Numbered from the stretch's first letter, positions 27,501 to 45,798 are shown. The stretch is DNA of 46,819 nucleotides from a virus (IMGVR_UViG_3300029448_000005:1-46819); one strand, 5' to 3'. A program made the numbers and translations. The notes: generated by a model not told the origin, from the letters alone.

Positions 27501-30500
27501 AGAAACAGTAAATGCTGTAGGTGGACAATTGTATGTTGCTAATTCTACTGCAATAACAGGCTCTGATACTTTAGCTGCTACTGCAACTACGATGAGTGTG
27601 GTTAATGTAACCGGATTTGCAGAAAACGAAGTTTTATCTGCAAAGAAGGTAACTTCCACCGGATTTGGTACGGAATATATGTTAGTTCAGAGTTCTTCAA
27701 GGGATAACCCATCAAGCGAATCAGACTTTGCTGGAAAGCTTTTTTTAATTAGAGGATACAGAAGTGGTAGTAATGGAATATCTGGATCTTTAGGTGATAT
27801 AGCAAATGCTTCACAATCATATGAGCCAGGTCAAGTTATAGTATCAACCGGAAAAGTAGGAACCGGTTACATAAGATTAAATGCAAATCCAAATGATTCG
27901 ACAACTCCGTATATGGATATTGTTGAAAGAACTGGTAGTGGAGTCTATGATGTAGATTTGAAGGCTCGTTTGGGTGATTTGAGTGGATTAAGTAGTGGGT
28001 TACTTTATGGGGAATCAAATCCTGGCTTTGGATTATTTACAGAAAATGTATTTTTAAGCGGAGCTATAACTGCTACTACGGGTTCTATAACCGGAATACT
28101 TCATGTTAGAACAGATTTATTAAATCAAGTAACAATAGGAACAAATGTTAAAAATTCTCTTGATGGTATTCACATAAATGATAATAACTTTTGGTATACC
28201 AATGGTCATTTTAGAACAGGATTCGATAGTGATAATTTTATACACCAATCGGGTTCTGCTCTTACCTTAAAATCAGAAACGTTTACGTTAAAAGGTGGAA
28301 CTACTTTAATATTAGATAGTACTACACCTAAATTAGTAATGGGAAGCAGTGCTGCTTCAATAACAGATACGGATAATACCGGTATCTATATGGATGGTAG
28401 TGGTAAGTTTAGGGTTGGTGAAGATCAGGGAAGTGGTGATAACTTTATTTACTTCAATGGAACTACCATACAGATGAAATCAACTGTATTTGATTTGGTT
28501 GCCGGTTCTACCCTCGTTATTAATAGTTCTACACCTAAGATTGCATTGGGTGCTAGTGCTACTGGACAAAGTTTGACTAGTGGAACTGGTATCTTTATGA
28601 ATGGAAGTGGACATTTTAAGGCTGGTAAAGCAGGTCACGGTAGAATTGAATGGGATGGGACTGATGTATATGTAAGTTCATCTGCATTCTTCTTAGGAAG
28701 TGATTCACAATTTTTAAGTGGTTCAAATGGTAACTTAGAAATAAGTTCTTCTAAATTTCATTTACAGCCAGATGGTGACACCATTATGCAGGGTAAAATT
28801 ACTGCTACAAGCGGTGAAATAGCTGGTTTGAGCATAGAATCAGACAAAATTTATGTTGGTACTGGTAATCATAACAACAGTGATACATCATTCTATGTAG
28901 AGAATGACGGAAAATTTAGTTTAAAAGATAAGTTATCTTGGGATGGGAGTGATTTATCAATTGAGGGTTCGATAACAATTACAGGAGGAAGTGGTTTTGC
29001 TTCACCAGCTGCTGTTAGTGGTAGTGTAAGCGATTTAAGTGGTTCGGTAGCTACTGATGTTGGTGGATTAGCGGTAGCTTCTTCATCAATGGCATCAACT
29101 GCAAGATTGACAAGCACTGGTATGGAAATACTGAATAGTGATGATAATGTAATAGCAGCGTATAGTGCTGACGCGGTTATTGGTAGAACTGATGCAGGAC
29201 AAAGTAATGTATTAATTGATTCGGACGGGAGTATTGATATTAGAAGGGGAACTGAAGTATCTGCATCCTTTGGTACAACAACTACAATAGGTCCAACTTC
29301 CGGTAATCATGTTGAAATTACTTCAACTTCTTTGGCAATAAAAACATCCTCAAATGTAACTGCTCTATCAGCATCAGCGGCTGGTTTGGATATGGCTGGA
29401 ACTATAAAGGCGAGTGGTGGAACAATTGGTGGGTTTGATATAGGAACTGATTTAGAATCACAATCCGGAACTTTAAATTTAAAAGGTAGTACCGGACAGA
29501 TTACAGGTTCAGCTGTATTATTTGATGGTGGTAAAATAGGTGGATTTACAATTGATGCTGATGAGATTAAAAGTGGAACTAATATAGGTTTAGATTCTAC
29601 TAATAAAAAATTAACAATAAACGATACCACATTTGGAAATGAAGGAATACAATTAGAATATAATGGTGGTACGCCAAGACTTTATGTTGGTGATGGTTCA
29701 AATGAATTTTTTAAATACGATGGAACTAATATAGACATTAGAACACAAAAGTTAAATGCTAGTGGTAGTAGTATAATACTAAAATCATCTGATTTTTATC
29801 TTGGTGATAGCTCAAACTTTGTAAGTGGGAGCGGTGGTAATCTCAGTATATTTAGTACCGGAGATACCACATTGAGTGGTAGTTCTATTACTTTGTCTAC
29901 TCCGAAATTTTTTATGGGAGAAGTATCTCAATTTATAAGTGGTAGTAATGGAAACATTGAAATAAGCTCTTCCAACTTTCATTTACAACCTGATGGTAAT
30001 GTAATAATGAGTGGTACGGTTACTGCTGGTGCTGGTGAGATAGGTGGATTCACACTATCCGATACAGAAATAAGTGCTAGTGGATTAGTATTAAAGGCTA
30101 GTGGACAAATGACTGCTTCTGCAGTATCGATGTCTGGAATGATAAATGCTAGTTCAGGACAGATTGGTAACTTTGCTATAGACAGTAATAATTTAGTGGG
30201 TGGAGGGACCTTTCAATTAAATCCAACTAACAATAGTGGTGAGGTTAGAATGGGTAGTAGTTTTGGACCAAACTCAGCTGATAGTACGACTACCGGTATT
30301 TACCTAAGTGGTACTGGTGAGTTTGGTTTCATTCAAGACACAAATAATAGGGTTTTTTCGGATGGAAATGGTCTTGATATACGTTCAACCGAATTTGTTT
30401 TGAATGCAGGAACATTAGAATTAGAAAATAAAACAACAACAACAGGAAAACTTCGTTTGGGTGGAACATTACCAACAGCATACGATAGTGGGGTTGGTTT

Positions 30501-31698
30501 TTATGCTGATGGTACTGGTAAATTTCTTGTTGGTAACTCAACTGGTTCAAGGATTCAATATGATGGTAATAATACACTTATATTGAGTTCATCTAAATTT
30601 GTTATTGGTGATATAGGTAGTAACTTTGTTAGTGGTAGTGATGGTAATTTAGAGATAAGTTCATCTAAATTTCATTTAGACAGTAAGAATGAAATTTTTA
30701 GCGTAGGACAACCATCTGGTAGTAGAATACAATTTGATGGAACTGAGTTAATTATGAGTTCATCTAAATTTTTATTGGGTGGTGGGGAACAATTTGTAAG
30801 TGGTTCAAATGGTAACATAGAAATCAGCTCATCAAATTTTCACTTACAGCCAGACGGTGATGTTGTTATGTCAGGTACTGTTACTGCAAATGCTGGTGCT
30901 ATAGGTGGGTTTACAATAAATTCTGGCGCTATAGAATCATCTAACATCAAAATTTCTTCTACGCACGCTTCAATGTCACTAGGAGGAAACGTAAAGATAG
31001 TTGGAGGAACAGACAGTTTTATTGCTGGTGGATCTTCACATTTAGATGATCCTTTTGGTGCTGCTTTTGACAATGATAATACTGGCTTTGTTCTTGGTAT
31101 AGATGATGATGTTGTAAAATTTGAAATATCTGATGATTCTGGTGATAATAAAATAGTTTTTGATTCATCGGCTAGTGATGTATTAGTATTAAAGGCTGAA
31201 AGTTTTTCATTTGGTTCAACAAACTTTAAGCTTACAGACTCGTCACTTAAATTAGGTACAATAGATAATGTGACAGATACAGCATCTACTGAAACAGGAT
31301 TCTTTGTAGACAGCAGTGGTAATGTATTAATAAAAACAGGCACTAGTTCCGAGACGGGCTATATGCAATTTAACAGTAATAATTTAAAAATAAAGACAAG
31401 TAATTTTGAAGTAGATGGTGGAGATGTAACAATAACAGGTGCTGTTACAGCAACCAGTGGTAATATTGCAACGTTTTCTATAACATCGGGTAGTATTGAT
31501 TCAAATTCTAATAATGCAAAGCGTGGAATAAAAGTAGAGCCAGGCGCATCAATTAGAGGTTACGGAAATGAGGTACATAAAACAACTACAGTGGCAGGAA
31601 AATTTAGTTTTTCTGTGGGCTCAGTATCGCCATCAGCAACAGCTAACGTTCCGTTTAATAGCAACTACTCAGCACCGCCTGGTTTGAGTGGTGATTAA
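21544..31698 (+). CDS. Giant repetitive fibre-like virion protein
   Basis: The product has about 3384 residues. The ATG at 21544 has TAGGA at the right spacing; an ATG at 21517 has none. Residues 1-145 form a globular start. Residues about 218-266 are a lysine/arginine-rich disordered linker. D-I-D-T-T-I-Y at 295-301 opens a segment echoing the DNRLRE-like protein at 5036. From about residue 670 to 3300 the chain is built of glycine/serine/threonine-rich modules. Twelve carry F-[I/V/L]-S-G-S-x-G-N or a close variant; most of these continue into E-I-S-S-S-x-F-H-L, and many then lead into G-G-F-x-I. Such repeats suit a long trimeric beta fibre. No clear C-terminal chaperone or catalytic motif is seen. 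It is likely a tail or side fibre. Confidence 0.75.
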   Translation: MATVKRFNKLLGLENIDVLIDERDTSRHIIITDMPQSLPQGKSSFLIEVSPYMKEGVELQVDFMDSEGNSIYLEPVQNYLEGSSRTMSVEIYDTTAAGVATMILVGELDRIPTTPGNFSETEEVPVDFQGVYNVRLTREVIINTAELNTQPIKFYSSPRLIANEQRFGTMEREVVEGEVASAAFTVIGRPVTQQSYEVFTTEENESNAQGSGVTETNDNKSIKPPDGDVKGDKAEKEKLKQHTKKRSVRTDSRFKRSRRIRRRRSPVEYPYSFSISDEEHEFTTNEIGGEIRFSDIDTTIYNSEDLTNNGLETPTFNVVSDTLDENFPTHYTASIADLNNSLTAYTNTPFTKQDREGNYRILELKATGQTFYEKQPSASFSLTNIVSYADITLSHLRTFSGELFKAKVYVRSEGSFDDYKLLAEVPIESPELMINSNSVGIGERTGYFISEEDKNTYWDLFGSTNGLTAASSTSTASFDNNTLLDSIMVSGSTSTFSDQIRFQLKEDYKFVLTKDIDYTLSFNTVGQKDTDGRALMLVYISGSCMNQANSLYNDEFTEINIEESSAYGKRMGVLEVETSDDDRKDFNLVSHNFNTDSTGEATIQFRVISGQWNLSDISVIPATDTGFSPSFVKFQQQLPPELTHKRPETLEFLTEFYDMNNNLADEIAVTTGSIFTGANMVITGDDNTMSGDLFIGGDTTGSGMHFGGVDSNLPETGTDGATGSGFMRSVGYLGFASASDASLDGKPGFMIYSGSVLPDSGENYAGVGLELVGASGSLKFRTNPSLFDVQADAFFVGKTTTQFISGSGEKIEISSSNFHLDDAGNVDMTGTITANAGEVGGFTIKDSSLRAGTGNSSVTMSGADQLMKFGSGSTFTASEIDGILFGKDTDGKYKFGVGKGGSYVFFDGDAVQIASEDINVTASVFSIDVDEFKLSATNLFVSSSEGGFVSLGNPRPSGIGGTNNGIFMQGRNPDDTKPKFLAGNAAGGHISFDGDNVFMSSSAFFLGSPSQFVSGSLGNVEISSSNFHLDNAGNVIMSGKITANEGAIGGFNITDDALSSTNFFISGSPTAGGDDTPEHMFISASNFNVKASGDVTASALSLTGGDVGGLSVESGVISVGSILKLKDSGQITGSKVLFSGGTIGGFTVNGGAGQSSLIGKTSDPAERFRLDLLSGELQVEGNDGFGITLGGDASSGYEATTDTSIPIVLATTEDASRTVVRFGDSGQFFKFDSGATPKLTISSSDYFLGTSTTFISGSNGNIKVSGSNLELETPKFFLGRKGNQFVSGSNGNVEISSSDFHLTAQGDVTASAILLGDKDGSNFLQFAGDTLTVRGDLAVDSLFLPSTIDGATSTAVNASSSLDSNGFAKFVSASIGGFIVNSSQINSVNNNIVLQSNGAATISGSSVNLQAPIFYLGNQTNFISGSNGNIEIFNSGATTISGSSVNVQTPKFYLGETDNFISGSNGNIEIFNTGTTTISGSAVNIQTPKFYLGETGQFISGSNGNIEISSSNFHLDSAGNVVMSGKVTADTGEIGGFTIGDDLDSTAGTLKLKGASGQITASAAQITGKITAQTGTIGGFNIGTDLDSSAGTLKLKGATGQITASAAQITGKITATSGQIADFTIDGTKLKQGTAFHLDGASSAEYFISSSDFQVTPAGQLTGSSALFDGTIDVTGTGTIAGWTIASGRFNDSGDNLRLDGDESQISVKNHTFGQAGIQLQYNSGTTRMYVGDGANKHLKFDGSDVDIKSAKFELDATNLELSSTHASMSLGEGKIRLVGASTSTITVGAANAIKLSDDGSDRFLVVGSKTSFTHFDQSTAGLILGTDNGTTKFELAADANNYISFDGSAFDIKTEVFTLDTTNLDINSSTKRIEVSDGSNVRVRIGEVDSTSANHFGITIYDGTGTAASDEIVHLSDAKNQIASWSLSPNQISSNNLILDSDGTIQTADFASNVKGWRITSANNGEAEFENVRIRGTLSTAVFEKETVNAVGGQLYVANSTAITGSDTLAATATTMSVVNVTGFAENEVLSAKKVTSTGFGTEYMLVQSSSRDNPSSESDFAGKLFLIRGYRSGSNGISGSLGDIANASQSYEPGQVIVSTGKVGTGYIRLNANPNDSTTPYMDIVERTGSGVYDVDLKARLGDLSGLSSGLLYGESNPGFGLFTENVFLSGAITATTGSITGILHVRTDLLNQVTIGTNVKNSLDGIHINDNNFWYTNGHFRTGFDSDNFIHQSGSALTLKSETFTLKGGTTLILDSTTPKLVMGSSAASITDTDNTGIYMDGSGKFRVGEDQGSGDNFIYFNGTTIQMKSTVFDLVAGSTLVINSSTPKIALGASATGQSLTSGTGIFMNGSGHFKAGKAGHGRIEWDGTDVYVSSSAFFLGSDSQFLSGSNGNLEISSSKFHLQPDGDTIMQGKITATSGEIAGLSIESDKIYVGTGNHNNSDTSFYVENDGKFSLKDKLSWDGSDLSIEGSITITGGSGFASPAAVSGSVSDLSGSVATDVGGLAVASSSMASTARLTSTGMEILNSDDNVIAAYSADAVIGRTDAGQSNVLIDSDGSIDIRRGTEVSASFGTTTTIGPTSGNHVEITSTSLAIKTSSNVTALSASAAGLDMAGTIKASGGTIGGFDIGTDLESQSGTLNLKGSTGQITGSAVLFDGGKIGGFTIDADEIKSGTNIGLDSTNKKLTINDTTFGNEGIQLEYNGGTPRLYVGDGSNEFFKYDGTNIDIRTQKLNASGSSIILKSSDFYLGDSSNFVSGSGGNLSIFSTGDTTLSGSSITLSTPKFFMGEVSQFISGSNGNIEISSSNFHLQPDGNVIMSGTVTAGAGEIGGFTLSDTEISASGLVLKASGQMTASAVSMSGMINASSGQIGNFAIDSNNLVGGGTFQLNPTNNSGEVRMGSSFGPNSADSTTTGIYLSGTGEFGFIQDTNNRVFSDGNGLDIRSTEFVLNAGTLELENKTTTTGKLRLGGTLPTAYDSGVGFYADGTGKFLVGNSTGSRIQYDGNNTLILSSSKFVIGDIGSNFVSGSDGNLEISSSKFHLDSKNEIFSVGQPSGSRIQFDGTELIMSSSKFLLGGGEQFVSGSNGNIEISSSNFHLQPDGDVVMSGTVTANAGAIGGFTINSGAIESSNIKISSTHASMSLGGNVKIVGGTDSFIAGGSSHLDDPFGAAFDNDNTGFVLGIDDDVVKFEISDDSGDNKIVFDSSASDVLVLKAESFSFGSTNFKLTDSSLKLGTIDNVTDTASTETGFFVDSSGNVLIKTGTSSETGYMQFNSNNLKIKTSNFEVDGGDVTITGAVTATSGNIATFSITSGSIDSNSNNAKRGIKVEPGASIRGYGNEVHKTTTVAGKFSFSVGSVSPSATANVPFNSNYSAPPGLSGD
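26143..26400 (+). repeat. 129-base tandem duplication within the giant fibre gene
   Basis: Two adjacent 129-base units (26143-26271 and 26272-26400) encode 43-residue modules that start I-G-G-F and share D-L-D-S-x-A-G-T-L-K-L-K-G-A and S-A-A-Q-I-T-G-K-I-T-A. The protein copies are nearly identical while many third codon positions differ, so the duplication is not brand new. A related module occurs near 29430-29520. Confidence 0.85.
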
Positions 31699-32933: not shown

Positions 32934-35900
32934 ATGGATAAACTAACAGAATTTTTAACAAAACCCTTTCTAAATGAGGGAGCTAGAGATCCAGGTATAT
33001 TTAAAGCTATCTTTTTAGCTGGTGGGCCAGGAAGTGGTAAATCCTTTGTTGCACAAAAGCTATTTGGCATACCAGAAAAGATAAATGTATCCAAGACCGG
33101 TTTAAAGATGGTAAATTCCGACAATGAATTAGAGGTATTACTCAAAAAGTATTTCGGTACAACCGACATTGATTTAATGCCTGATGAGCTATTTGCTGAT
33201 TTAACAGGTGTGGATAAGTCAGGTAAGCCTGTAGATTATGATACAAGTGGCTTAAGAGATTTTGCTAAATCACTAACCAAACAAAGGTTAAAACTTTATA
33301 CGGATGGTAAGTTGGGTGTTATCATAGATGGTACTGGTCACAAATATGCTAAGATAAAAGATAAAAGAAAAAAATTAATGGATATGGGTTACGATACCTA
33401 TATGGTATTTGTAAATACAAGCTTAGATGTTGCTTTAGATAGAAATGAAAAAAGAGCTAGGGTGGTGCCAGAAAAGATTGTTCGTAAGAGTTGGCAGGAT
33501 GTTCAAAATAATATGGGTGCCTTTCAAGGTTTATTCGGTGGTTCAAATTTTCAGATTATATCAAATAACGAACACCTATCCGAAAAACAAATACACAAAA
33601 GATTTAAGATGTTGGTTAGCAAAGGAATAGATAAATTTTTAAAAAAACCAATTAAAAATAAAATTGCTAAGGCTTGGTTGAGAAGAGAAAAGAAACATCA
33701 AAAGGTATTTAAAGATCCAGGCCAATCTCGTTTCTTTGAGAGTATAAATGTTCCTGTTGATATAGGTGATACAGTTCTTATGGGTAGATTTAAAAACAAA
33801 AAGGTAGTTGTTAAGTCTATTGATTATAATGAAAAGGGTGACTTACTTATCAATGGTAGGACTGCTCTTAAATTTAGGGTTATGAAAAAAGATGAAGCAG
33901 CTAGAGTTCCTCGTAAGAAAGGACAACATCGTGGTTCAAAGTCTCATTCAGATTTATACACAGATGAGAATCCAAAAGGAACAATAAAAGGGTTAAAGTT
34001 TGCTACAGTAAAGGATGCTAAGGCATCGGTGAGTAAGATAAAAGGAAGTGGTAAAAAACACGCACATAAGATACAAGCCGCTGTAGCTATGGAACAGAGA
34101 GCTAGGGAAATGGGTAAAAGTTCAGAGGCTGCTGTCTATAGAGCTTACATCAATAAGATGAAAAAGAAAACCAAAGCTAAGAACGAAGAGTTTGGTGCGC
34201 CAGCAGGAACATTACCATCACCAAGTCGTAAGATGGTAAAGAAGATGAAGAAGAAAGGCAATACCTCAGTTCCTTATGGTAGTGGTTATAAGAAAGTAAA
34301 TGAACAAAAAGAAATCAAAAAAACAATTGGTGTATTCGGTGGTAGATTTCAACCATTTCATAGTGGACATCTAGCAACATATAAATGGTTAACTTCTCAA
34401 GTTGATGAGGCCTATATAACTACATCTAATATTAAACAACCACCACGACACCCTATGAACTTTAAAGAAAAAGTTAGACATATGGTTAAGATGGGTATTC
34501 CGGCAAATCGTATTATTATGGAAAAATCTCCTTATGTAGCAAAAAATTTATTAAAGAAGTTTAACAAAGATACAACGGCTGTTGTTTATGCTTTCGGTCA
34601 AAAAGATGCTGGTAGATTAAAAGCTGGTAAGGGTAAATATTTCCAAGACTATAAAAAAAGTAAAGGTGATATCAAAGGATATGAGGAGAACGGATATTTT
34701 ATAACAGCGCCCCAATTTGGTTCGGTTAGTGGTACACAGATGAGAAAACTTTTAGGTGACCCGAAACTTGATGATAGTGAAAGAGTAAAAGCATTTAAAA
34801 AAGTCTTTGGATATTACGATAAAGGTGTGTATAGTATGATGACAAATAAATTTAAAAAATTATTTGAAACATATACTCTATCTAAAGAGTTAATAGAAAA
34901 TTTTCTGTTAGAATCATCAGCCACTCCAGCTGGTAATTTGGATGACGGTCCTTCTACATACTATTCGGATTATAAAGTATATAAAAAAACTTCAAAAGAA
35001 TGGTTAGATTCTATTTATAAAAATGCTGGTTGGGAAATTGTAAATTATATTTTAGATGACAGAGCACAGAATGGAATAGAAAAAAATTATCATTCAGTTC
35101 CACTAACTTATTTAGACCACGGTCAAGCAAATGGTTCTACCAGGGCAGTTTCCAAATACAAAACTTGGATAGAAAATGTTGTAAAACCACTTGGTTGGAA
35201 AGTTGTAAATTGGATGGGTACTGATGCTGCTATTGATAATATCATAGGTTCATTATTTGCGGCTGGTGCAGATGGGGATTCATATGATGTTACATCCTTA
35301 TATGAAAAAATAAATTTAGATAAGGAAGTTGATTTATTATTAGAAGGTGGCGCTTATGGTCATTTAAACCACCCATTTGATAATAAAAATCTTACATTTT
35401 CAGATTTTAAAACACTAATTATTAATACATTACAAGGTAAACTTGATAATGAAGGAACGGTTACAGAAAAAACAGATGGACAGAATATAATGGTAAGTTG
35501 GAAGAATGGTAAACTTTTAGCTGCTCGTAACAAAGGACATATTAAAAATCACGGTGCTAATGCTTTGAATATAGATGGTGTAAAAAGTATGTTTGCCGGT
35601 AGAGGTGATATAGAAAAAGCTTTTGTTTATGCTATGAGAGATTTACAGAATGCTGTTGGTAAACTTAGTGATGCACAAAAAACAAAAATATTTGATGAAG
35701 GAAAGAAATTTATGTCTTTAGAGGTTATTTATCCTAAGACAGCCAATGTAATACCTTATGATAAAGCACTATTACAATTTCACGGAACAATAGAGTATGA
35801 TTCTGCTGGCTCTCCAATAGGAGAGGATAGGGGAAGTGCTAGAATGTTAGCTGGTATGATAAAACAGATAAATCAAGATGTTCAAAAAGCATTTAAAATT

Positions 35901-36575
35901 GAAAAACCATTTGTAACTAAATTACCAAAGGTAAAAGATTTTAGTAAAAAGCAAAGTTACTTTTTAGGAAAACTAAAAAAATTACAGAGTGAATATAATT
36001 TAAAAGGAAATAATACACTATCTGAATATCATCAAGCTTATTGGATGGAGTATATTTATAATGGCGCAAAACAAACAGATTATAAACATCCTGATAATAG
36101 GGTGTTAATGAAGCTAACAAAAAGATGGGCTTTCTTTGATAAGTCTTATAAGATACCACAGATTAAAAAAGATTTAAAGGACTATCCAAAGTTTTTAAGT
36201 TGGGTATTAAGTACAGATAAAATGGATCACGCTAGACTACAAAAACAACATATCAGAGATTGGGAAGTTCTTTTCTTTGAGTTAGGAGCTGAGATACTCT
36301 CTAATCTTAGTGATTTTATAGCTGCTAATCCATCTAAAGCTGCTCAACAAATTCGTAAGGATTTAAAAACAGCAATTAACAAAGTTAAAAAATCTAAAGA
36401 TCCAAAAGTGTTAAATACTTTAAAAACTCAATTGGATAGATTGAATGCTATCGGTGGATTGAAATCAGTAGTGCCAAGTGAAGGAATTACATTTGTGTAT
36501 AAAGGAAAACTTTATAAATATACAGGCGCTTTTGCACCAGCAAATCAAATCTTAGGTATGTTAAAATTCGTATAG
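32934..36575 (+). CDS. Kinase / NMNAT-like / ligase fusion protein
   Basis: The 1213-residue product has three enzyme-like parts. (1) A zeta-toxin/polynucleotide-kinase-like P-loop kinase, Walker A G-G-P-G-S-G-K-S at 30-37 and V-I-I-D-G-T-G further on. (2) After a small SH3-like piece (about 272-320) and a basic helical module (about 350-410), an NMNAT/cytidylyltransferase-type domain with H-S-G-H at 476-479 and S-G-T-Q-M-R at 599-604. (3) A ligase-type nucleotidyltransferase with K-T-D-G at 846-849 (Lys846 as adenylate acceptor), Arg865, Glu930, E-G at 1183-1184 and K at 1190-1195. The first 15 residues end in L-N-E followed by G, and L-L-E804|G805 lies just before the ligase; both fit prohead-protease sites. 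Possible roles are RNA or DNA end repair and NAD metabolism. Confidence 0.8.
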   Translation: MDKLTEFLTKPFLNEGARDPGIFKAIFLAGGPGSGKSFVAQKLFGIPEKINVSKTGLKMVNSDNELEVLLKKYFGTTDIDLMPDELFADLTGVDKSGKPVDYDTSGLRDFAKSLTKQRLKLYTDGKLGVIIDGTGHKYAKIKDKRKKLMDMGYDTYMVFVNTSLDVALDRNEKRARVVPEKIVRKSWQDVQNNMGAFQGLFGGSNFQIISNNEHLSEKQIHKRFKMLVSKGIDKFLKKPIKNKIAKAWLRREKKHQKVFKDPGQSRFFESINVPVDIGDTVLMGRFKNKKVVVKSIDYNEKGDLLINGRTALKFRVMKKDEAARVPRKKGQHRGSKSHSDLYTDENPKGTIKGLKFATVKDAKASVSKIKGSGKKHAHKIQAAVAMEQRAREMGKSSEAAVYRAYINKMKKKTKAKNEEFGAPAGTLPSPSRKMVKKMKKKGNTSVPYGSGYKKVNEQKEIKKTIGVFGGRFQPFHSGHLATYKWLTSQVDEAYITTSNIKQPPRHPMNFKEKVRHMVKMGIPANRIIMEKSPYVAKNLLKKFNKDTTAVVYAFGQKDAGRLKAGKGKYFQDYKKSKGDIKGYEENGYFITAPQFGSVSGTQMRKLLGDPKLDDSERVKAFKKVFGYYDKGVYSMMTNKFKKLFETYTLSKELIENFLLESSATPAGNLDDGPSTYYSDYKVYKKTSKEWLDSIYKNAGWEIVNYILDDRAQNGIEKNYHSVPLTYLDHGQANGSTRAVSKYKTWIENVVKPLGWKVVNWMGTDAAIDNIIGSLFAAGADGDSYDVTSLYEKINLDKEVDLLLEGGAYGHLNHPFDNKNLTFSDFKTLIINTLQGKLDNEGTVTEKTDGQNIMVSWKNGKLLAARNKGHIKNHGANALNIDGVKSMFAGRGDIEKAFVYAMRDLQNAVGKLSDAQKTKIFDEGKKFMSLEVIYPKTANVIPYDKALLQFHGTIEYDSAGSPIGEDRGSARMLAGMIKQINQDVQKAFKIEKPFVTKLPKVKDFSKKQSYFLGKLKKLQSEYNLKGNNTLSEYHQAYWMEYIYNGAKQTDYKHPDNRVLMKLTKRWAFFDKSYKIPQIKKDLKDYPKFLSWVLSTDKMDHARLQKQHIRDWEVLFFELGAEILSNLSDFIAANPSKAAQQIRKDLKTAINKVKKSKDPKVLNTLKTQLDRLNAIGGLKSVVPSEGITFVYKGKLYKYTGAFAPANQILGMLKFV

Positions 36576-37738: not shown

Positions 37739-38137
37739 ATGAAGGTATTAAAATATTTTCTGATATTCTTTTTTGCTTTATCTATGGCAGATGGACAAAG
37801 TATAAAGAAAGATGGTAAGGTAGTAAAAACTTTTACATACGATGAAGCATTAGATATGTTGAAAGCTCGTGACGCACAATGGGAAGGTAAAATAGAAAAA
37901 GCTGATTCATTAATTGCATCACAAAAAGTGGTGATTAGTGATTGTGAGAACTTAGTGGTAAAATTAGAAGAATCTGCTAATGTTGATTCATTATTAATTA
38001 TTGCCAAAGATTCACAGATTAAATTACTTAAAGCTCGTGACGAAGCTAATGAGAAGATGGTAAAGTTGATTGAACCAAAGTGGTATGAAAACCAATATCT
38101 TTGGTTGGGTATAGGATTTATTTTAGGAAAGATATAA
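37739..38137 (+). CDS. Small exported or membrane protein with coiled coil
   Basis: The 132-residue product starts at the ATG at 37739. A longer reading from 37694 would overlap the upstream gene and spoil the leader. Residues 1-18 look like a signal peptide or membrane anchor (MKVLKYFLIFFFALSMADG). Residues about 35-115 are a helical, coiled-coil-like region. The C-terminus ends in a hydrophobic segment (NQYLWLGIGFILGK). Two hydrophobic ends around a coiled coil would suit a lysis/spanin-type or membrane-bridging protein. No clear Shine-Dalgarno; translation probably re-initiates from the stop at 37737. TAATG coupling to terminase. Confidence 0.6.
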   Translation: MKVLKYFLIFFFALSMADGQSIKKDGKVVKTFTYDEALDMLKARDAQWEGKIEKADSLIASQKVVISDCENLVVKLEESANVDSLLIIAKDSQIKLLKARDEANEKMVKLIEPKWYENQYLWLGIGFILGKI

Positions 38138-39714
38138 TGAAACCAGGACAACTAAAAGAGGTAATAAAAACCGAATATAAGAAGTGCGCTAAAGACCCTA
38201 TATACTTTTTAAAAAAGTATTGTGTTGTCCAGCACCCAATAAAGGGTAAAGTTCCATTCCATCTTTGGTCTTACCAAGAACAATCACTAAAAACCTTTGA
38301 AGAACATAGGTTTAATATTATTCTTAAAGCTAGACAGTTAGGTTTATCTACGTTATCAGCCGGATACTCCCTTTGGATGATGACATTTCACCAAGACAAA
38401 AATATCTTGGTGATTGCAACTAAACAAGATACTGCTAAGAACTTGGTTACTAAGGTTAGGGTTATGCATGCTAACTTACCAAGCTGGCTAAAACAAAAGT
38501 GTACAGAAGATAACAAGCTGTCGTTGAGATACAACAATGGCTCACAAATTAAAGCAGTCTCAAGCGGAGAAGATTCTGGTCGTTCTGAGGCTCTTTCATT
38601 ATTAATATTGGATGAGGCTGCTTTCATTGATAAGATTGAACCGATATGGGCTGCTGCTTCACAGACACTTTCTACTGGTGGACAATGTATTGCTCTTTCT
38701 ACACCAAATGGTATAGGTAATTGGTTTCATAAGACTTGGGTTGGTGCAGAAGATGGAACAAACGATTGGAACTTTATTAGATTACATTGGAACTTACATC
38801 CTGAAAGAAATGATGAGTGGAGAGCTGAGCAAGACAGACTATTGGGTCCTTCGTTAGCTGCTCAAGAATGTGATTGTGACTTCTTAACCTCAGGACAAAC
38901 TGTTATTGATGGTGTGATATTAGAAGAGTATAAACAAACACACGTTACAGAACCATTGGAGAAGAGAGGAATAGATAGTTGCCTTTGGATATGGCAACCA
39001 GCAAACTATACTAGAGATTATGTGCTGAGTGCTGATGTTAGTAGAGGAGATGGTTCAGATTTTTCTGCATTTCACGTTATGGATATAGAAACTATGGAAC
39101 AGGTAGCAGAGTATAGGGGTAAGATATCAACAAAAGATTTTGGAAACTTATGCGTAAATACAGCAACAGAATATAATAATGCTTTGCTGGTGGTTGAGAA
39201 TAACAATATAGGTTGGGCTACACTTCAACAATGTATTGATAGAGGATATGAGAACCTTTTTTACACGAGTAAAGATTTGAAGTATGTGGATACAGAACAT
39301 CAAATTAATAATCGATATAGAACACAAGATCGTAATATGGTAGCTGGATTTAGTATGACAATGAAAACAAGACCTTTGGTAATTGCTAAATTAGAAGAAT
39401 ACTTTAGAGAAAAATCAGTAATTGTTCGTTCAAATAGATTAATTGATGAACTTTTTGTATTTATATATAACAACAATAAAGCTGAAGCGATGCAGGGATA
39501 TAACGATGATTTGGTGATGAGCTTTGCTCTTACCCTTTGGGTAAGAGATACTGCATTGAGATTAAAAAATGAAGGAATAGAGCTAACTAAAAGAACTTTA
39601 GGTGGTGTAGCATCACAGATGTTACCACAGAAACCAACCAATCAAAATAATTCTTGGGAAATGGAAGTAGGACCCAATGGAGAAAAAGAAAATTTAGATT
39701 GGTTAATTAACTAA
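38137..39714 (+). CDS. 17: Terminase large subunit, gp17-like
   Basis: The 525-residue product starts at the ATG at 38137 with AGGAAAG; a TTG at 38101 would give 12 extra residues and is less likely. The ATPase motor shows the Walker A-like A-R-Q-L-G-L-S-T (65-72), Walker B L-L-I-L-D-E (Asp159/Glu160) and the coupling motif S-T-P-N-G. The nuclease domain has D in S-A-D-V-S-R-G-D-G (Asp300), E in V-V-E-N-N-N (Glu354) and D-D in G-Y-N-D-D-L (457-458), the RNase-H-like metal ligands. T4 gp17 is longer (610). It packages DNA into the prohead through the portal encoded next. No obvious gp16 small subunit is recognised upstream. Confidence 0.95.
   Translation: MKPGQLKEVIKTEYKKCAKDPIYFLKKYCVVQHPIKGKVPFHLWSYQEQSLKTFEEHRFNIILKARQLGLSTLSAGYSLWMMTFHQDKNILVIATKQDTAKNLVTKVRVMHANLPSWLKQKCTEDNKLSLRYNNGSQIKAVSSGEDSGRSEALSLLILDEAAFIDKIEPIWAAASQTLSTGGQCIALSTPNGIGNWFHKTWVGAEDGTNDWNFIRLHWNLHPERNDEWRAEQDRLLGPSLAAQECDCDFLTSGQTVIDGVILEEYKQTHVTEPLEKRGIDSCLWIWQPANYTRDYVLSADVSRGDGSDFSAFHVMDIETMEQVAEYRGKISTKDFGNLCVNTATEYNNALLVVENNNIGWATLQQCIDRGYENLFYTSKDLKYVDTEHQINNRYRTQDRNMVAGFSMTMKTRPLVIAKLEEYFREKSVIVRSNRLIDELFVFIYNNNKAEAMQGYNDDLVMSFALTLWVRDTALRLKNEGIELTKRTLGGVASQMLPQKPTNQNNSWEMEVGPNGEKENLDWLIN
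39458..39471 (+). promoter_or_regulatory. Promoter-like motif inside the terminase gene
   Basis: TATTTATATATAAC matches 14 of 15 bases of the copies at 46-60 and 13198-13212, but lies within coding sequence (Y-N-N-N region of terminase), 254 bases before the portal start. It could be an internal promoter for portal and head genes, or a chance match. Confidence 0.2.
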
Positions 39715-39724
39715 GAGGTAAATT

Positions 39725-41530
39725 ATGGCAGAACAAGATTTATTTTCAAGACTAAAACGATTGTTTTCAACAAATACAATTGTTAGAAATATAGGTGGTA
39801 GAAAGCTAAAGGTAGTAGACACGGGACAATTACAATCGAATATTCAAACTAATCTGGTAGACAGGTATACTAAATTATACTCTACTTCACAGAATATGGG
39901 ATATAACGACCAATTATATCAACAACAATTGAGGTTAGGTCTATTCAAAGATTATGAATCAATGGATTCCGATTCAATAATTTCCTCAGCCTTAGATATT
40001 TACTCTGATGAATCAACAATGAAAAATGAGTATGGTAAGGTATTAGATATTAAAACAGACAATGACCAAATATATGATATACTGCATAATCTTTTTTATG
40101 ATGTGATTAATATTGAATTTAACCTATGGCCTTGGATTCGTAATATGACTAAATATGGTGACTTCTTTTTACAATTAGAAGTTGCTGATAAGTATGGTGT
40201 TGTAAATGTAACTCCTATGTCTGCTTATGATGTGGCTAGATTAGAGGGTCATGATGAGGACAATCCTCAAAATGTACAATTTATGTTAACTCCACAAGCA
40301 GATAGCAATAGACACACAGGAAAAACCAAAGAAACACAGACATTTGAAAATTATGAGGTAGCTCACTTTAGATTATTATCAGATTCTAATTATGTTCCTT
40401 ATGGTAAATCTATGTTAGAAGGTGGTAGGAAAGTTTGGAAACAAGTTACTTTGATGGAAGATGCTATGTTGATTCATAGGATTATGAGAGCACCTGAAAA
40501 AAGGGTATTTAAGTTGGATATTGGAAACATACCACCAGCAGAAGTAGATAACTATATGCAGCAGGTAATTAATAAGATGAAGAAGGCTCCTGTTATTGAC
40601 GAAAAGACAGGTGACTATAACCTTAGATATAACATACAGAACTTAACAGAGGACTTCTTCTTACCAGTTCGTGGTGGGGATAGTGGAACATCTATTGATA
40701 GTCTTAGTGGTTTAAGCTATGATGCTGTTGATGACATAGAATATTTAAAGAATAGATTACTTGCATCCCTAAGAGTGCCAAAGGCTTTCTTAGGATATGA
40801 GGAAGGATTGGGTTCTAAAGCTACATTGGCTGCTGAGGATGTTAGGTTTGCTAGAACAATTGAGAGAATACAGAGAATTGTTGTTAGTGAATTGACAAAG
40901 ATTGCTGTGGTTCATCTATATTCACAAGGATTTAGAGACCAAGAGCTTGTAAACTTTGATTTAGGTTTGACGAATCCATCTACAATATACGAACAAGAAA
41001 AGATTGAGTTGTGGAATAACAAAACATCTTTAGCATCTTCTATGATGCAGGACGGTTTGGTATCTTCTGAATGGATTTATAAAAATATATTTGGATTTAC
41101 GGATGAACAAATTAAAGAAACCGATGAGCAGATAACTTTTGATTATAAAACTAAATTTAGAAGGCAACAAATTGAAACAGAAGGTAACGATCCAGCTAAA
41201 AGTGGACAATCTCAAGGTACACCATCAGATATGGCTATGGGTAGAACAGGTCATGAGTTAGATGACGAGGGCGGTTCTGAAAAAGGTGGACAGCCAGGTG
41301 CAGGTCGACCTAAAGAAGCTAATAAATATGGTAAAGATGGTAGTGCGAGAGGAAGAGATCCATTGGGTGCTCACGATAAAAAGAAAGCTTATGGTGGTGT
41401 AGCTACAAAACATTACGAAAATTTGTTTAAACACTTAGGTTCTGATGCAAAAAAATTACTTTCAGAGGCTAATGATTTAGAGGATGAATATAAAACAGAA
41501 GTTTCTTCTCTTAATACTAAGAAAAACTAA
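39725..41530 (+). CDS. 20: Portal vertex protein, gp20-like
   Basis: The 601-residue product is longer than T4 gp20 (524). Family features include the N-terminal D-L-F-S-R-L-K-R-L-F, the block H-R-I-M-R-A-P-E-K-R-V-F-K-L-D-I-G-N (about 250-267), D-D-I-E-Y-L-K-N-R-L and R-V-P-K-A-F-L-G-Y-E. The C-terminus is glycine-rich (SGQSQGTPSDMAMGRTGHE onward) and ends with L-S-E581|A582, which fits a prohead-protease consensus. Twelve copies would form the portal ring that nucleates head assembly and docks terminase. GAGGTAAATT precedes the ATG, 11 bases after terminase. Confidence 0.93.
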   Translation: MAEQDLFSRLKRLFSTNTIVRNIGGRKLKVVDTGQLQSNIQTNLVDRYTKLYSTSQNMGYNDQLYQQQLRLGLFKDYESMDSDSIISSALDIYSDESTMKNEYGKVLDIKTDNDQIYDILHNLFYDVINIEFNLWPWIRNMTKYGDFFLQLEVADKYGVVNVTPMSAYDVARLEGHDEDNPQNVQFMLTPQADSNRHTGKTKETQTFENYEVAHFRLLSDSNYVPYGKSMLEGGRKVWKQVTLMEDAMLIHRIMRAPEKRVFKLDIGNIPPAEVDNYMQQVINKMKKAPVIDEKTGDYNLRYNIQNLTEDFFLPVRGGDSGTSIDSLSGLSYDAVDDIEYLKNRLLASLRVPKAFLGYEEGLGSKATLAAEDVRFARTIERIQRIVVSELTKIAVVHLYSQGFRDQELVNFDLGLTNPSTIYEQEKIELWNNKTSLASSMMQDGLVSSEWIYKNIFGFTDEQIKETDEQITFDYKTKFRRQQIETEGNDPAKSGQSQGTPSDMAMGRTGHELDDEGGSEKGGQPGAGRPKEANKYGKDGSARGRDPLGAHDKKKAYGGVATKHYENLFKHLGSDAKKLLSEANDLEDEYKTEVSSLNTKKN

Positions 41531-41580: not shown

Positions 41581-42435
41581 ATGAGTTCAAAAACAAAACA
41601 CTCAAAAATCCGTAATACGGGTATATTATTTGAGTTACTAACTAGACAGATTACGGTTGATGTGTTAAATAATGATAAAAATGGTTCAGCTGCAAAATTA
41701 TTAAAGAACTTTTTTAACAAAAACACAGAATTGGGTAAAGAATATGAACTGTATAGGGTATTGACTGTAGAAAATTATAAATCAGAAACAAAAGCAAATC
41801 ATTTAGTCAATGCTGTCATAAATGCTCGTACTAAACTAAACGAAAGTTCTTTAAAAAGAGAAAAATATAATCTAATTAAAGAGGTTCGTACCAATTATGA
41901 TATAAATAATTTTTTTATGGCTAGAATACCGAATTATAAAGTGAATGCTTCAATATATAAACTATTTTCTATAAAGGAATCTACAAATCCTAAGATAGAA
42001 ACAGAAAGTCGATTTACAATCGTAGAAAACATAACAAGAAAAAAGATTTCTGATAAAAAGAAAGAAAATGTTATGGTAGAGGGTTACAAAAAGCAAGAAA
42101 AAGACTTGAGATTACTTGCATATGGTATATTAGTCGAAAAATTTAATAAAAAGTATAGTTCTCTTAGCAAAAATCAAAGAAACTTACTAAAAGAGTACAT
42201 AAATAACATTTCTAACACCAATTCTCTTAAAGAGTTCATCGAAGCTGAGACAATTAAGGTAAAAAAACAACTCCAATCGTATTTACCTCAAGTTACAGAC
42301 AAAGTTACGAAGATTAAGCTAAAAGAAGCTGTAAATCAAGCAGAAACTCTTATGAAAGGAAGAATAGTAGAGGATAAACAGGTAGTTACCCTAATGAGAT
42401 ATTATCAATTAGTTAAGGAGCTAAAGAATGTCTAA
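41581..42435 (+). CDS. Hypothetical helical head-region protein
   Basis: The product has 284 residues from the ATG at 41581, which has GGAG at 41571-41574; a TTG at 41569 in the same frame is disfavoured. It is mainly helical and basic, starting M-S-S-K-T-K-H-S-K-I-R-N-T-G, then I-L-F-E-L-L-T-R-Q-I. I do not recognise the family. Its slot after portal and before the core proteins and the gp21 protease suggests a head-assembly or scaffolding function, an inference from position. It overlaps the next gene by 8 bases, with AAGGAG inside. Confidence 0.65.
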   Translation: MSSKTKHSKIRNTGILFELLTRQITVDVLNNDKNGSAAKLLKNFFNKNTELGKEYELYRVLTVENYKSETKANHLVNAVINARTKLNESSLKREKYNLIKEVRTNYDINNFFMARIPNYKVNASIYKLFSIKESTNPKIETESRFTIVENITRKKISDKKKENVMVEGYKKQEKDLRLLAYGILVEKFNKKYSSLSKNQRNLLKEYINNISNTNSLKEFIEAETIKVKKQLQSYLPQVTDKVTKIKLKEAVNQAETLMKGRIVEDKQVVTLMRYYQLVKELKNV

Positions 42436-42856
42436 ATTGGATAAACTCAAAGAAATTATCAGAGAGTTAATCAAAAAAGAGCTTGATGAGGCTAGCACCT
42501 CAGCTGCTACGCCTGGATACCAGACACCTTATGCATTTAGTGGTGGTAGAAAAAAGGACAAGAAGAAAAAGAAGAATATAGCTACCAATTCTACTGGATA
42601 TAGTAAGGTAAATGAGGGAAAGTATCACGATTACAGAAATGATGATACTTTATCACCAAAACAAAAGATTGGTCGTTCAATGAGAGAGATTAGAGATAGT
42701 CTTAATGAATTGAACAAGTTAGTAAAGATGAATGTTCGTCTTAAAAATGAATTGAAAGTTGATTCTAGGTCATATTGGAAAAATACACATAAGGCTTTAA
42801 ACAAAATAAGTGAAAGGTTAGTAAAACTTGCAAATAAAGTAGGACAATTACAATAA
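42428..42856 (+). CDS. Prohead core-like protein with candidate capsid-targeting leader
   Basis: The 142-residue product has an N-terminal amphipathic helix (MSKLDKLKEIIRELIKKEL) followed by L-D-E|A at residues 19-22, the T4 gp21 cleavage pattern. Then comes S-T-S-A-A-T-P-G-Y-Q-T-P-Y-A-F, a lysine cluster (K-K-D-K-K-K-K-K), and a helical C-terminal half. The position between portal and protease is where T4 has genes 67 and 68, the small prohead core proteins. That homology is inferred from position and the cleavage-like site, not from direct similarity. Confidence 0.65.
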   Translation: MSKLDKLKEIIRELIKKELDEASTSAATPGYQTPYAFSGGRKKDKKKKKNIATNSTGYSKVNEGKYHDYRNDDTLSPKQKIGRSMREIRDSLNELNKLVKMNVRLKNELKVDSRSYWKNTHKALNKISERLVKLANKVGQLQ

Positions 42857-43053: not shown

Positions 43054-43682
43054 TGATTTCACTATTAGAAATTGCACAAAATATGAATGAAGTTGATGAC
43101 GACAAAATCATCAAGTATAGGGATGAGGAAGGTGAGTCTCAAGAAATGCCAGCCGGTTCTGCAAAAAAACTCCCTAAAGATCATCCGGCAAAGATAGCTT
43201 ATGATACGATGGGTAAATATGATGATTATCAGGACAAAAAAGATGATAATGAAAAGGATGATGTTGGTAAACTAAGTGATACTGATTTTGATAGAGATGG
43301 AAGTGAAGATGATAATGATAAAAGTGATGATGTAGAAATATCCGATGCTAACTCCGGTCCTATTGATAGAGATGATATTATGGATATGTTGAAGAACGAT
43401 TCTGAGATAATGGATAAGATAGGTACAGGTGATGACGATGATTTATATTGGGATGGTTTAGATTTAGTAAGTTCAAAAATGGATGACCAAACAGTTGCAT
43501 CTATAGATGGTGATTCTAATATGACTCTTGGTGATTTGAAAAAACAAATAATGAATTTTGAGAATGAAGAAGATATGGATGAAACCATCACAATCAATGG
43601 AAAAAAATATAAAGCAATAAAGGAATCAAAGAAACATTCTCTAAAAGAAAATTACGATAGAATATTTAGGAGTTTAAAATGA
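43053..43682 (+). CDS. Highly acidic prohead core-like protein
   Basis: The 209-residue product is extremely aspartate-rich in residues about 55-150 (such as KKDDNEKDDVGK and EDDNDKSDD), hence strongly negative. The N-terminal leader M-I-S-L-L-E-I-A-Q-N-M-N-E|V resembles a short capsid-targeting peptide. The C-terminus is basic and helical (I-K-E-S-K-K-H-S-L-K-E-N-Y-D-R-I-F). Acidic core proteins are typical of T4 heads (for example gp67), and the gp21 protease gene overlaps its stop (ATGA). It is probably degraded or cleaved in maturation, by inference. Confidence 0.65.
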   Translation: MISLLEIAQNMNEVDDDKIIKYRDEEGESQEMPAGSAKKLPKDHPAKIAYDTMGKYDDYQDKKDDNEKDDVGKLSDTDFDRDGSEDDNDKSDDVEISDANSGPIDRDDIMDMLKNDSEIMDKIGTGDDDDLYWDGLDLVSSKMDDQTVASIDGDSNMTLGDLKKQIMNFENEEDMDETITINGKKYKAIKESKKHSLKENYDRIFRSLK

Positions 43683-44278
43683 AACAATTAATAGTAGATT
43701 ACTTACCATTTGAAATACAGGCCGACCAAATCAATGAGGCTATGAAAGAGAACAACGGAAAGTTAGTTGTTAAGGGTGTATTGCAAAGAGCAGACACTAA
43801 AAACCAAAATGGTAGGGTGTATCCAAAAGAAATTTTAGTAAGAGAAGCGAAGAAGTATTCTTCTAATTTCGTAAAACAAAAAAGAGCTATGGGCGAACTC
43901 GACCATCCTGAATCATCTGTTGTTAATTTACAGAATGTATCTCATAATGTAACAGATATGAATTTTAATGGAGATGATTTAGTTGGTACAGTAGAAGTCC
44001 TAACTACACCAAGCGGAAACATTCTAAGAGAATTATTTAAGAATGGTATTAAGTTGGGTATATCTTCTCGTGGTATGGGTTCGGTTGAATCTGTAAATGA
44101 GAGTGGAGCTCAAGAAGTGCAGGATGATTTTGAACTAATCGCTTTTGACTTTGTATCTAATCCATCTACACATGGTGCTTTTCTACATCCAATGAATGAG
44201 AGTGTAGAAAATATTGCTGTGCGTGATACTAAGTATGGTAAAGTCGAAGCAGTAATAAATGATATACTGAGAGGGTAA
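43679..44278 (+). CDS. 21: Prohead maturation protease, gp21-like
   Basis: The 199-residue product is close to T4 gp21 (212). It has the serine-protease fold signatures G-E-L-D-H-P (His76), L-G-I-S-S-R-G (Ser129/Ser130) and the later F-D-F-V-S-N-P-S-T. It matures the head by cutting scaffold and shell proteins, and in T4 it also cuts itself. An I-N-E20|A21 site near its own N-terminus fits self-removal of a propeptide. AGGAG at about 43668 gives strong initiation. It is surrounded by several proteins carrying matching candidate sites, which are its likely substrates. Confidence 0.93.
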   Translation: MKQLIVDYLPFEIQADQINEAMKENNGKLVVKGVLQRADTKNQNGRVYPKEILVREAKKYSSNFVKQKRAMGELDHPESSVVNLQNVSHNVTDMNFNGDDLVGTVEVLTTPSGNILRELFKNGIKLGISSRGMGSVESVNESGAQEVQDDFELIAFDFVSNPSTHGAFLHPMNESVENIAVRDTKYGKVEAVINDILRG

Positions 44279-45538
44279 ATGCCATCTAAGTCCAAACAAC
44301 AACAAAAGTTTATGGGTATTGTTAGGGCGATACAGAAGGGCGAAGCGCCCGCTGGAAAGTTTTCAAAAGCAGCTCAAAAGGCTGCTAAGTCTATGAAGAA
44401 GGGTAGTGTAAGAAAGTATGCTAAAACAAAGCATGATGACTTACCTAAAAAGGTAAAGGAAGAAAGAGACTATAAGGATGAGTATAAGAAATTTCAATCT
44501 TCTACAAAGTCTAAGAAATACAGAGCAGAATTAAATAAGTATAATCGTAAGAAGGGTACTTATGGAAATGGTGATGGCAAAGACGCTTCACATAAAGGGG
44601 GAAAGATTGTGGGATTTGAATCAGAGTCTAAGAATAGAGGAAGAGCTGAGAAGAGTCGTTTGAAGAAGGAAGGATCCGTAAATGAAGCTCCTATGGAATT
44701 GAATAAAATCAAAGATGCTATCAAAATGTTTCAAAAGAAAATTGAGAAACAAGGTAGAGTTACCAATGCTAGAGATGAAGAACATCTGAAAAATTTAATT
44801 AAACTTTATATACAGATGGGTGGAAGGGGTGTTAAAGAATCTAAACTCAACGAAAACCCAGCTGCTATGTCAGCCGTACAAGCCATGACAAAACTTAAAA
44901 TGAACAACCCCAAAACAGGTAAAAAAGTATCTGCTGCCAGCGCTTTAAAAAATAAAGATAATCCAAATCATAAGAAAGCTAAAAGCATCTTTCAAAGATT
45001 AAAGGATAAGTTTTCTAAGAAGAAAAAAGAAGAACCTAAAAAACAATCAAAGGCAGATGCTGACTTTTATAAAAGACAATATGAATCCGTAAATGAAGGC
45101 CAAAAAAGAGAAGCCAGTAATATACTAAGAAAATTTGATATGGCTTATATAAAATTCTCAAGAGAGATTAGAGATGTTATTAAAATGATGGATAGGTCAA
45201 CCGGTAGTAAAGTGGACGGAAAGATTATAGAAAAGGCATATGGAAAAGGTCTTATTCCACTTAATAAACTAATGATAGAATGGGATAGAGGACAACAATC
45301 AAATCCTGGTATAGATGAAGCTAAAGATCCTGATATAATTTCTAAAATTAGGGATGTTTTAAAGAATGGTATTACAAATATTAAAGATCCTGTATCAGGT
45401 AAAAATATGAAAGTTGATTCTTTTTCTGCATCTGCTATAACTCAGGTATATGATAAGATTAATAGAGCTAATAAGAAAAAATTTGTAAAGCTATCATTAC
45501 CTAAAATGGCTAAATTAGCTATGAAATTCGTAAAATGA
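44279..45538 (+). CDS. DUF3008-like head protein, possible polyprotein
   Basis: The 419-residue, very basic product begins with the DUF3008-type pattern M-P-S-K-S-K-Q-Q-Q-K-F-M-G and A-A-K-S-M-K-K-G-S. Helical modules are separated by four cleavage-like tripeptides: V-N-E136|A137, L-N-E192|N193, V-N-E273|G274 and I-D-E347|A348. Two agree only in part with the T4 rule, which prefers L/I before x-E. This looks like a string of internal-head peptides freed by gp21. Basic peptides could neutralise packaged DNA. It starts directly after the protease stop, with GAGAGG as ribosome-binding site. Confidence 0.65.
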   Translation: MPSKSKQQQKFMGIVRAIQKGEAPAGKFSKAAQKAAKSMKKGSVRKYAKTKHDDLPKKVKEERDYKDEYKKFQSSTKSKKYRAELNKYNRKKGTYGNGDGKDASHKGGKIVGFESESKNRGRAEKSRLKKEGSVNEAPMELNKIKDAIKMFQKKIEKQGRVTNARDEEHLKNLIKLYIQMGGRGVKESKLNENPAAMSAVQAMTKLKMNNPKTGKKVSAASALKNKDNPNHKKAKSIFQRLKDKFSKKKKEEPKKQSKADADFYKRQYESVNEGQKREASNILRKFDMAYIKFSREIRDVIKMMDRSTGSKVDGKIIEKAYGKGLIPLNKLMIEWDRGQQSNPGIDEAKDPDIISKIRDVLKNGITNIKDPVSGKNMKVDSFSASAITQVYDKINRANKKKFVKLSLPKMAKLAMKFVK

Positions 45539-45798
45539 TAAAGCTTAAAGACATTTTAACCGAAGCTGACGACCACGAAGGTAAGATGGCTAAATCACAA
45601 TTAGAACGTTCTATGAAATATTCTAAGATGATTTACAAAATGATTGATAATGTCGGTAAGGGTGGTGAAGTAGAAATGCCGGCTTGGGTTCAGTCTAAAC
45701 TAACTAAGTCTATGGACTATTTACAGAGTGTGTACAATTACTTAGACGGTAAAGATGGTTTAGAAGATAAATTTCAAAAAGAAAATTCAAAAAAGTAA
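45535..45798 (+). CDS. Small internal-head-like protein with candidate targeting leader
   Basis: In the 87-residue product, M-I-K-L-K-D-I-L-T-E|A is a compact leader matching L-x-E|A, very like the T4 internal-protein targeting peptide that gp21 removes. The rest is helical (DDHEGKMAKSQLERSMKYSK, then a tryptophan and a second helix). Its start overlaps the stop of the preceding gene (ATGA). A packaged internal protein is the most likely reading, inferred from the leader and context. Confidence 0.65.
   Translation: MIKLKDILTEADDHEGKMAKSQLERSMKYSKMIYKMIDNVGKGGEVEMPAWVQSKLTKSMDYLQSVYNYLDGKDGLEDKFQKENSKK

Follow-up and report, generated by a model that had tools for sequence, protein, structure and literature searches.

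The 46,819-nucleotide stretch of viral DNA analysed here (the window) carries a gene of a marine T4-like virus (32934..36575, + strand) that encodes 1213 amino acids, with in-frame stops absent, and places several enzymes on one chain. Comparison with its relatives strongly supports that this polyprotein would be packaged and cleaved by the prohead protease. The reading that is favoured here, and considered rather probable, is that of a virion polyprotein which would be cut by the prohead protease, injected, and used to mend RNA, tRNA first, that has been cut by the defence nucleases of the host. According to this model, the polyprotein would be guided into the prohead core by its first 15 residues and then be cut by the gp21-like protease that the phage itself encodes, with sites after [L/I/V/F]xE at the edges of the domains (predicted at E15, E269, E457, E660, and E804). 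The cuts would release, within the head, a polynucleotide-kinase-like kinase and an NMNAT-like adenylyltransferase, with a basic KOW/helical piece for nucleic-acid binding between them, followed by an acidic piece and, last, an RNA-ligase-like enzyme. The freed enzymes may then be injected along with the genome, and their purpose would be the end-healing and sealing of RNA ahead of phage protein synthesis. A large minority of relatives would instead make the ligase separately, from an in-frame Shine-Dalgarno sequence and ATG located at the very place of the protease site in the others.

Reading frame and genomic setting

A sequence-only reading of this DNA had proposed a kinase, an NMNAT-like nucleotidyltransferase, and a ligase-type domain in one frame. 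This arrangement was borne out by Pfam for the first two domains and by fold searches, in which the ligase fold is recovered weakly. The motifs GGPGSGKS (residues 30-37), HSGH (476-479), SGTQMR (599-604), and KTDG (846-849) all lie at the residues given earlier. Two or more unlike catalytic domains share one chain near the portal and terminase genes.

The genes downstream, all on the + strand, include a large terminase (38101..39714; Terminase_6N, E=1.3e-10), a T4-like portal protein (39725..41530; Portal_T4, E=3e-76), and, 7 kb downstream of the polyprotein gene, a gp21-like prohead (head maturation) protease (43679..44278; phrog_207, E=4.6e-55), which is the presumed processing enzyme. A small protein (45535..45798, +) starts with MIKLKDILTE|A, a targeting peptide of like style. 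A homologue of gene 36585 and TerL are found downstream of the polyprotein gene in 32 of 32 long related loci, with portal and gp21 further along where the locus extends so far. The record has no tRNA genes, and none of PF01068 DNA ligase, PF09414 RNA ligase, PF01743, and PF04095 was found in it. The PADLOC search and the plasmid search returned no match.

Targeting peptide and predicted cleavage sites

The polyprotein opens with a putative capsid-targeting peptide, MDKLTEFLTKPFLNE (32934..32978, +; predicted cut E15|G16), which is common to relatives with different first domains. A peptide of the form M[DN]KLTxxLxxPFLxE heads a kinase, a KOW, or a nucleotidyltransferase module in different relatives, and its end is always xE. 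As it stands before different cargo domains, the peptide would travel independently of its cargo, like the capsid-targeting sequences of T4. The earlier description of the first 15 residues as capsid-targeting-like and ending in LNE|G is therefore well supported by comparison. The gp21 protease of T4 recognises L/I-x-E and cuts behind it, and IPIII needs no more than its first 10 residues for packaging (PMC9026906).

Within the window protein, three strict L/I-x-E-[AGS] sites are present where shuffled sequences lead one to expect 1.5 (P=0.18); for a strict site within the first 25 residues, P=0.024. The two cut-type sites first pointed out, LNE|G (15) and LLE|G (804), are present and, although weak by themselves, become convincing as candidate sites through comparison; the number of junction sites, however, is five (E15, E269, E457, E660, and E804) and not two. 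The motif [LIVMF]xE is found directly before the kinase in 29 of 29 distinct junctions, before KOW in 33 of 33, and before the nucleotidyltransferase in 53 of 55; its average in interior windows is 0-16%. Likewise, 74 of 91 junctions behind the nucleotidyltransferase have [LIVM]xE[AGS], versus 13.8 in shuffles. Before the nucleotidyltransferase, xE stays though the upstream sequences are wholly unrelated. Each module also shows the same kind of site whichever element precedes it. For example, the kinase has LLHE|G after the N-terminal peptide and VTE|G after another module, KOW has FLDE|D and MAE|S, respectively, and the nucleotidyltransferase has TLDE|A and LNE|A. The ligase has LILE|GG in LR756500, where it is first or alone, and LLE|GG after another module. 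Sites of this type also stand before the kinase of HTVC008M (FILKE, then G) and the ligase of Mel-JY01 (IIAE, then G). The residues past the predicted cuts are more varied than in classic T4 sites, which have E|A/G; before KOW they include S, D, and K, and before the nucleotidyltransferase Q or N predominate.

The xE motifs might rather be structural caps at domain starts, with the intact polypeptide working in the infected cell, and several [LIVMF]xE motifs do occur inside domains too. In addition, the in-frame fusion is retained even in relatives that have an internal start for the ligase. An uncut chain is nevertheless quite improbable, as the motif occurs at every junction despite unrelated upstream sequence, the N-terminal peptide ends in the same motif, and the last site is replaced in some relatives by an internal start that would yield the same N-terminus.

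Kinase, KOW, helical, and nucleotidyltransferase modules

The PNK/zeta-like P-loop kinase module (32979..33740, +; residues 16-269, 28.8 kDa; predicted cut FFE269|S270) has its Walker A motif at 30-37, D63, and a lid with R170-R174. Two Pfam families match above their curated cut-offs, namely AAA_33 (26-194, E=7e-9) and Zeta_toxin (E=2e-8). AlphaFold2 models were made for residues 1-660 and 655-1213 from alignments of relatives. The best PDB match of the kinase model is bacterial Pnkp 4mde, a DNA-bound complex (E=1.3e-6, TM 0.63 by target), with zeta toxin close behind. T4 Pnkp has the Arg of a D-x-x-R motif after the P-loop. In the window kinase, the Arg of this substrate motif is missing (D63-N-E-L66), which weakens a simple Pnkp reading.

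The KOW/SH3-like module (33741..33899, +; residues 270-322) has a weak Pfam KOW match, and in relatives it is found first, second, or behind the kinase. It is followed by a conserved helical module (323-418) and a basic linker (419-457) (together 33900..34304, +; predicted cut VNE457|Q458). The helical part shares 74-77% identity with a portion of cyanophage structural-cluster proteins.

The NMNAT-like HxGH nucleotidyltransferase module (34305..34913, +; residues 458-660, 23.4 kDa; predicted cut LLE660|S661) matches CTP_transf_like at 467-553 (E=4.6e-9, above the curated cut-off). Its HSGH and SGTQMR stretches correspond to the HxGH and SxTxxR motifs and are conserved in relatives, and its model matches NaMN/NMN adenylyltransferases in the PDB at 1e-5 to 5e-5. 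NAD synthesis, which had been among the proposed activities, gains no support beyond this fold and is the weakest reading, a doubtful one. The module scored 22.6 bits against the NadM family TIGR01527, whose curated cut-off is 181.2, and the 93.5-kb record and six relatives, all seven of them possibly incomplete, yielded no NAPRTase.

These two results also bear on a small-molecule or NAD-type pathway, in which a nucleoside or sugar, phosphorylated by the kinase, would be activated by the HxGH enzyme to an NAD-like or NDP conjugate and then transferred by the ligase-like domain. Such a pathway recalls NadR-type enzymes, which consist of a kinase and an HxGH enzyme, and no solved structures are nearer to the nucleotidyltransferase domain than those of NMNAT; NAD synthesis has also been suggested by the authors of the S-SCSM1 study (PMC9602691). 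The low NadM score and the lack of an NAPRTase in these possibly incomplete records, together with a kinase that is nearest to polynucleotide kinase and zeta toxin, render it a rather remote explanation.

Module X and the ligase-like domain

The acidic module X (34914..35345, +; residues 661-804, 16.1 kDa; predicted cut LLE804|G805) is variable; its AlphaFold2 model is of low confidence, and other domains take its place in relatives. The chain ends with an RNA-ligase-like covalent nucleotidyltransferase (35346..36572, +; residues 805-1213, 46.4 kDa) with motifs I (K846-TDG), Ia (AARNK, 863-867), III (E930), IV (EG, 1183-1184), and V (K1195). EKxDG, A-R-N, the motif-III Glu, EG, and K-x-T (motif V in this form only) are invariant among 17 sequences of at least 37% identity, as is the pattern in covalent nucleotidyltransferases; motifs III and IV lie about 250 residues apart.

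No Pfam family, ligase models included, matched the C-terminal part, and the ligase profile gave only chance matches against PDB by sequence. With the model of the ligase half, RNA or DNA ligases fill the first 11 places among the PDB matches (best E=0.011, low TM), and among viral models (BFVD) the matches are RNA ligases at 8e-4 to 0.1. The models thus weakly suggest that the C-terminal domain is RNA-ligase-like, and not that it is a proven ligase. Homology of the ligase with DUF6267 (PF19782) was considered and is not established by hhalign (probability 8% and 2%), nor is there a Pfam match. In cellular genome collections, relatives of the ligase were found at four loci only, all in metagenome bins, which are likely stray phage contigs. 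A side observation is that motif I and an H-x-x-H stretch of the ligase and DUF6267 align by eye.

Two types of junction before the ligase

The junction before the ligase was compared in 115 distinct relatives. The position of Glu reads [LIM]xE|GG in 74, Met in 40, and Cys in one. The LLE|G site noticed earlier is thus present at 804, and the junction of the window polyprotein is of the protease-site type, but a universal site at this point is rejected, since Met replaces Glu in 40 of the 115 junctions. In the Met class, a Lys-Glu pair is located 5-6 residues upstream of the ligase start in 39 of the 40 junctions, and it is encoded as AAG GAG in 39 of 39 cases. Other Lys-Glu pairs of the same ORFs are AAGGAG in 0 of 248, AAG and GAG making up 27% and 24% of their codons (binomial 5e-47 for the excess at Met junctions, relatedness left uncorrected). 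At that place, AAGGAG is found in 0 of 75 other (non-Met) junctions. The flanks of AAGGAG differ, and the Leu codons between it and the ATG vary. The arrangement is AAGGAG-N9-ATG-GGN-GGN, and its AAGGAG-N9-ATG part is, judging from this pattern, an in-frame internal ribosome-binding site with its start. Internal SD-ATG sites are nearly absent elsewhere in the related ORFs.

A Met that stands before Gly is normally removed, so that a ligase starting with GGAYGH would be expected by either route. A tree of the ligase domain, built with the junction excluded, has 10 state changes, 7 of which are forced by well-supported branches, with long branches blurring the exact number. The protease site and the internal start would thus have been swapped at least seven times, and we read them as two interchangeable ways of freeing the ligase. 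The other explanation is that the Met variant has no translational role and owes its AAGGAG to common descent. Modules do recombine, so that the linker may have spread, and Met rows cluster on the tree. This is very improbable, however, in view of an AAGGAG kept at all 39 Lys-Glu pairs of the Met class despite differing flanks and variable Leu codons and found at none of the other Lys-Glu pairs, of the repeated switches, and of the scarcity of any other internal SD-ATG in these ORFs.

Modular relatives and function

Two IMG/VR scans returned 312 and more than 589 related stretches, and 144 distinct loci were read. More than 130 related ORFs on marine viral contigs are modular polyproteins. Across them, modules (kinase, KOW, helical, nucleotidyltransferase, X, and ligase) drop out, change place, or give way to others. 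For example, KOW is first and the kinase absent in L024, L025, L062, and L072, KOW is ahead of the kinase in L039, L114, L135, L142, and L149, and the kinase is a separate gene in L080, L129, and L154. Some relatives have long extra modules. One of them has an inserted CCA-adding enzyme (a PolyA_pol head at 2.3e-30, an RNA-binding part, and an HD domain), another opens with the RNA-binding part of a CCA enzyme, and three further relatives have HD domains before the nucleotidyltransferase. Mel-JY01, which lies outside the main group, has only the nucleotidyltransferase and ligase fused, a huge phage has the ligase domain standing alone, and HTVC008M has a ligase-like DUF6267, KOW, kinase, and nucleotidyltransferase as adjacent genes.

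Repair of RNA, and especially of tRNA, is the best guess at the function, as CCA-adding enzymes act on tRNA; taken on its own, this role has about an even chance. The combination of kinase and ligase-like domain is also reminiscent of T4, with its Pnkp and RNA ligase, and of the bacterial Pnkp chain. The packaged enzymes may otherwise act on DNA, where the kinase and ligase would mend nicks or ends in the injected genome while the nucleotidyltransferase would supply NAD or adenylate. The protein would enter with the genome, its gene adjoins the terminase gene, and PNK-like enzymes work on both DNA and RNA, the best PDB match of the kinase being bound to DNA. Since the fold of the ligase matches RNA ligases best, and the CCA-adding and HD modules added by relatives act on RNA, a role in DNA repair is considered unlikely.

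Comparison with known systems

Some support for packaging comes from cyanophage virions. The NMNAT-like ORF91 of S-SCSM1, which starts with MKSFLQFLKE|A, was detected in purified virions by mass spectrometry (PMC9602691), and a cytidylyltransferase was detected in virions of S-CREM2, with the authors warning of carry-over (PMC10665884). These are homologous or analogous modules, not the window protein, and by analogy they would support its packaging indirectly. ORFs 89, 90, and 92 of S-SCSM1, considered as candidates for a virion DUF6267, have no Pfam match and were rejected. In Atu_ph07, the gene of the kinase protein is approximately the 53rd CDS, inside a cluster (CDS 31-76) rich in virion proteins.

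The T4 internal proteins IPI-III and Alt share with the window a short N-terminal peptide ending in L/I-x-E, a gp21-like protease, and a late head-gene location. They carry one cargo each, whereas the window has one long chain of several enzymes with a predicted site at nearly every border. The gp21-like proteases of phiKZ and SPN3US make multiple Glu-directed cuts in injected proteins, whose cargo is unrelated to that of the window (PMC5694885, PMC9026906). Polyvalent proteins, known from phages and conjugative elements, likewise have several unlike catalytic domains per chain and are located beside portal and terminase; they are thought to be injected, and in-head proteolysis has been proposed by the authors (Iyer et al., 2017, PMC5512222). 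By comparison with the parts of that article drawn on here, the window differs in its PNK-like, NMNAT-like, and ligase-like domains, a combination that those parts do not mention, in the predicted cutting by a shared prohead protease rather than built-in peptidases, and in the internal start that some family members have for one module.

Bacterial Pnkp (kinase-phosphatase-ligase, as in Clostridium thermocellum), which is the nearest solved structure to the window kinase, and T4 Pnkp with RNA ligase resemble the window in a PNK-like N-terminal and a ligase-like C-terminal part. However, the window polyprotein lacks the central metallophosphatase of bacterial Pnkp and has the HxGH nucleotidyltransferase (CTP_transf_like) in its place. 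Its ligase also differs by a long helical stretch inserted between motifs III and IV, and it falls outside the Pfam ligase families. The cyanophage/pelagiphage cluster of DUF6267 (T4-GC_71), KOW, kinase, and cytidyltransferase (T4-GC_190) has comparable activities in neighbouring, unfused genes, and its nucleotidyltransferase, bearing a targeting peptide, was detected in virions. The module architecture of the window polyprotein is not described in the reviews and literature searched, a search of incomplete coverage. Injected multi-enzyme phage proteins are a known kind, and what is unusual here is the exchange between protease site and internal start.

Implications

It is possible, and put forward tentatively, that marine T4-like phages bring along in the head a ready-made set of RNA-repair enzymes, in equimolar amounts, as a cleavable polyprotein whose modules pass from phage to phage, and that the family switches repeatedly between protease site and internal start, either of which gives the ligase the same N-terminus. 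The exchange at one junction would be an unusual natural experiment on the freeing of one enzyme from a polyprotein. If the proposed reading is true, exact protein N-termini are predicted that are open to proteomics, and xE at module borders would be a readable rule for spotting packaged enzymes in abundant marine phages. Repair of RNA damage inflicted by host defence would then begin with proteins borne by the particle and not with those synthesised in the infected cell, and this might account for the ability of these phages to outpace fast suicidal tRNA nucleases.

The helical module of the window polyprotein (residues 323-418; window 33900-34187) shares 74-77% identity with part of cyanophage proteins (S-SM2 SSM2_109, T4-GC 119). 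This conservation is far above that of the adjoining polyprotein modules, and on these grounds the helical module is evidently a recently exchanged one. In cyanophages, T4-GC 119 is placed between gp16 and gp17.

Other modules have been swapped into related loci, which include AAT acyltransferase (C45)-like domains (L080:8157-9173; L057:9090-10220, a weak match) and a Zn_protease-like domain (L136:2569-3840). ParB-like stretches in L126/L127 were recognised by eye. In several related polyproteins the nucleotidyltransferase is preceded by parts of a CCA-adding enzyme, namely its RNA-binding part (L077:1-1560) or a PolyA_pol match (2.3e-30) with an HD domain (L108:880-2691), or by an HD domain (L125:3-1130, L131:3-728, L106:1-612). 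Contigs L037, L045, and L078 carry two ORFs in place of one continuous polyprotein frame, either genuine split genes or assembly errors.

The 778-aa Atu_ph07 protein AUZ94865 (L088:4254-6590; N-terminus MKWNDLNEA) has a kinase homologous to the window kinase directly following VTE|G (bar, predicted cut), and an ART-like part seen by eye only. Its gene lies within a cluster rich in virion proteins. In the window, three further late proteins have N-terminal peptides resembling that of the polyprotein, namely KELDE|A (42428-42856), MIKLKDILTE|A (45535-45798), and MANIKLKDLLNE|V (45823-46458), and are candidate targeted or processed head proteins. The window also holds very large ORFs of 2227 aa (6481-13164) and 3393 aa (21517-31698), the latter with no significant Pfam match.

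DUF6267 (T4-GC_71) proteins (L087:8251-9483, L156:5995-7188, L157:5977-7182, L159:2995-4206, L160:4944-5906) are usually encoded beside a cytidyltransferase gene. Their invariant K-W/Y-D-G-A-P motif and E-G-x-V...K-x-V tail suggest an unrecognised ligase-like family.
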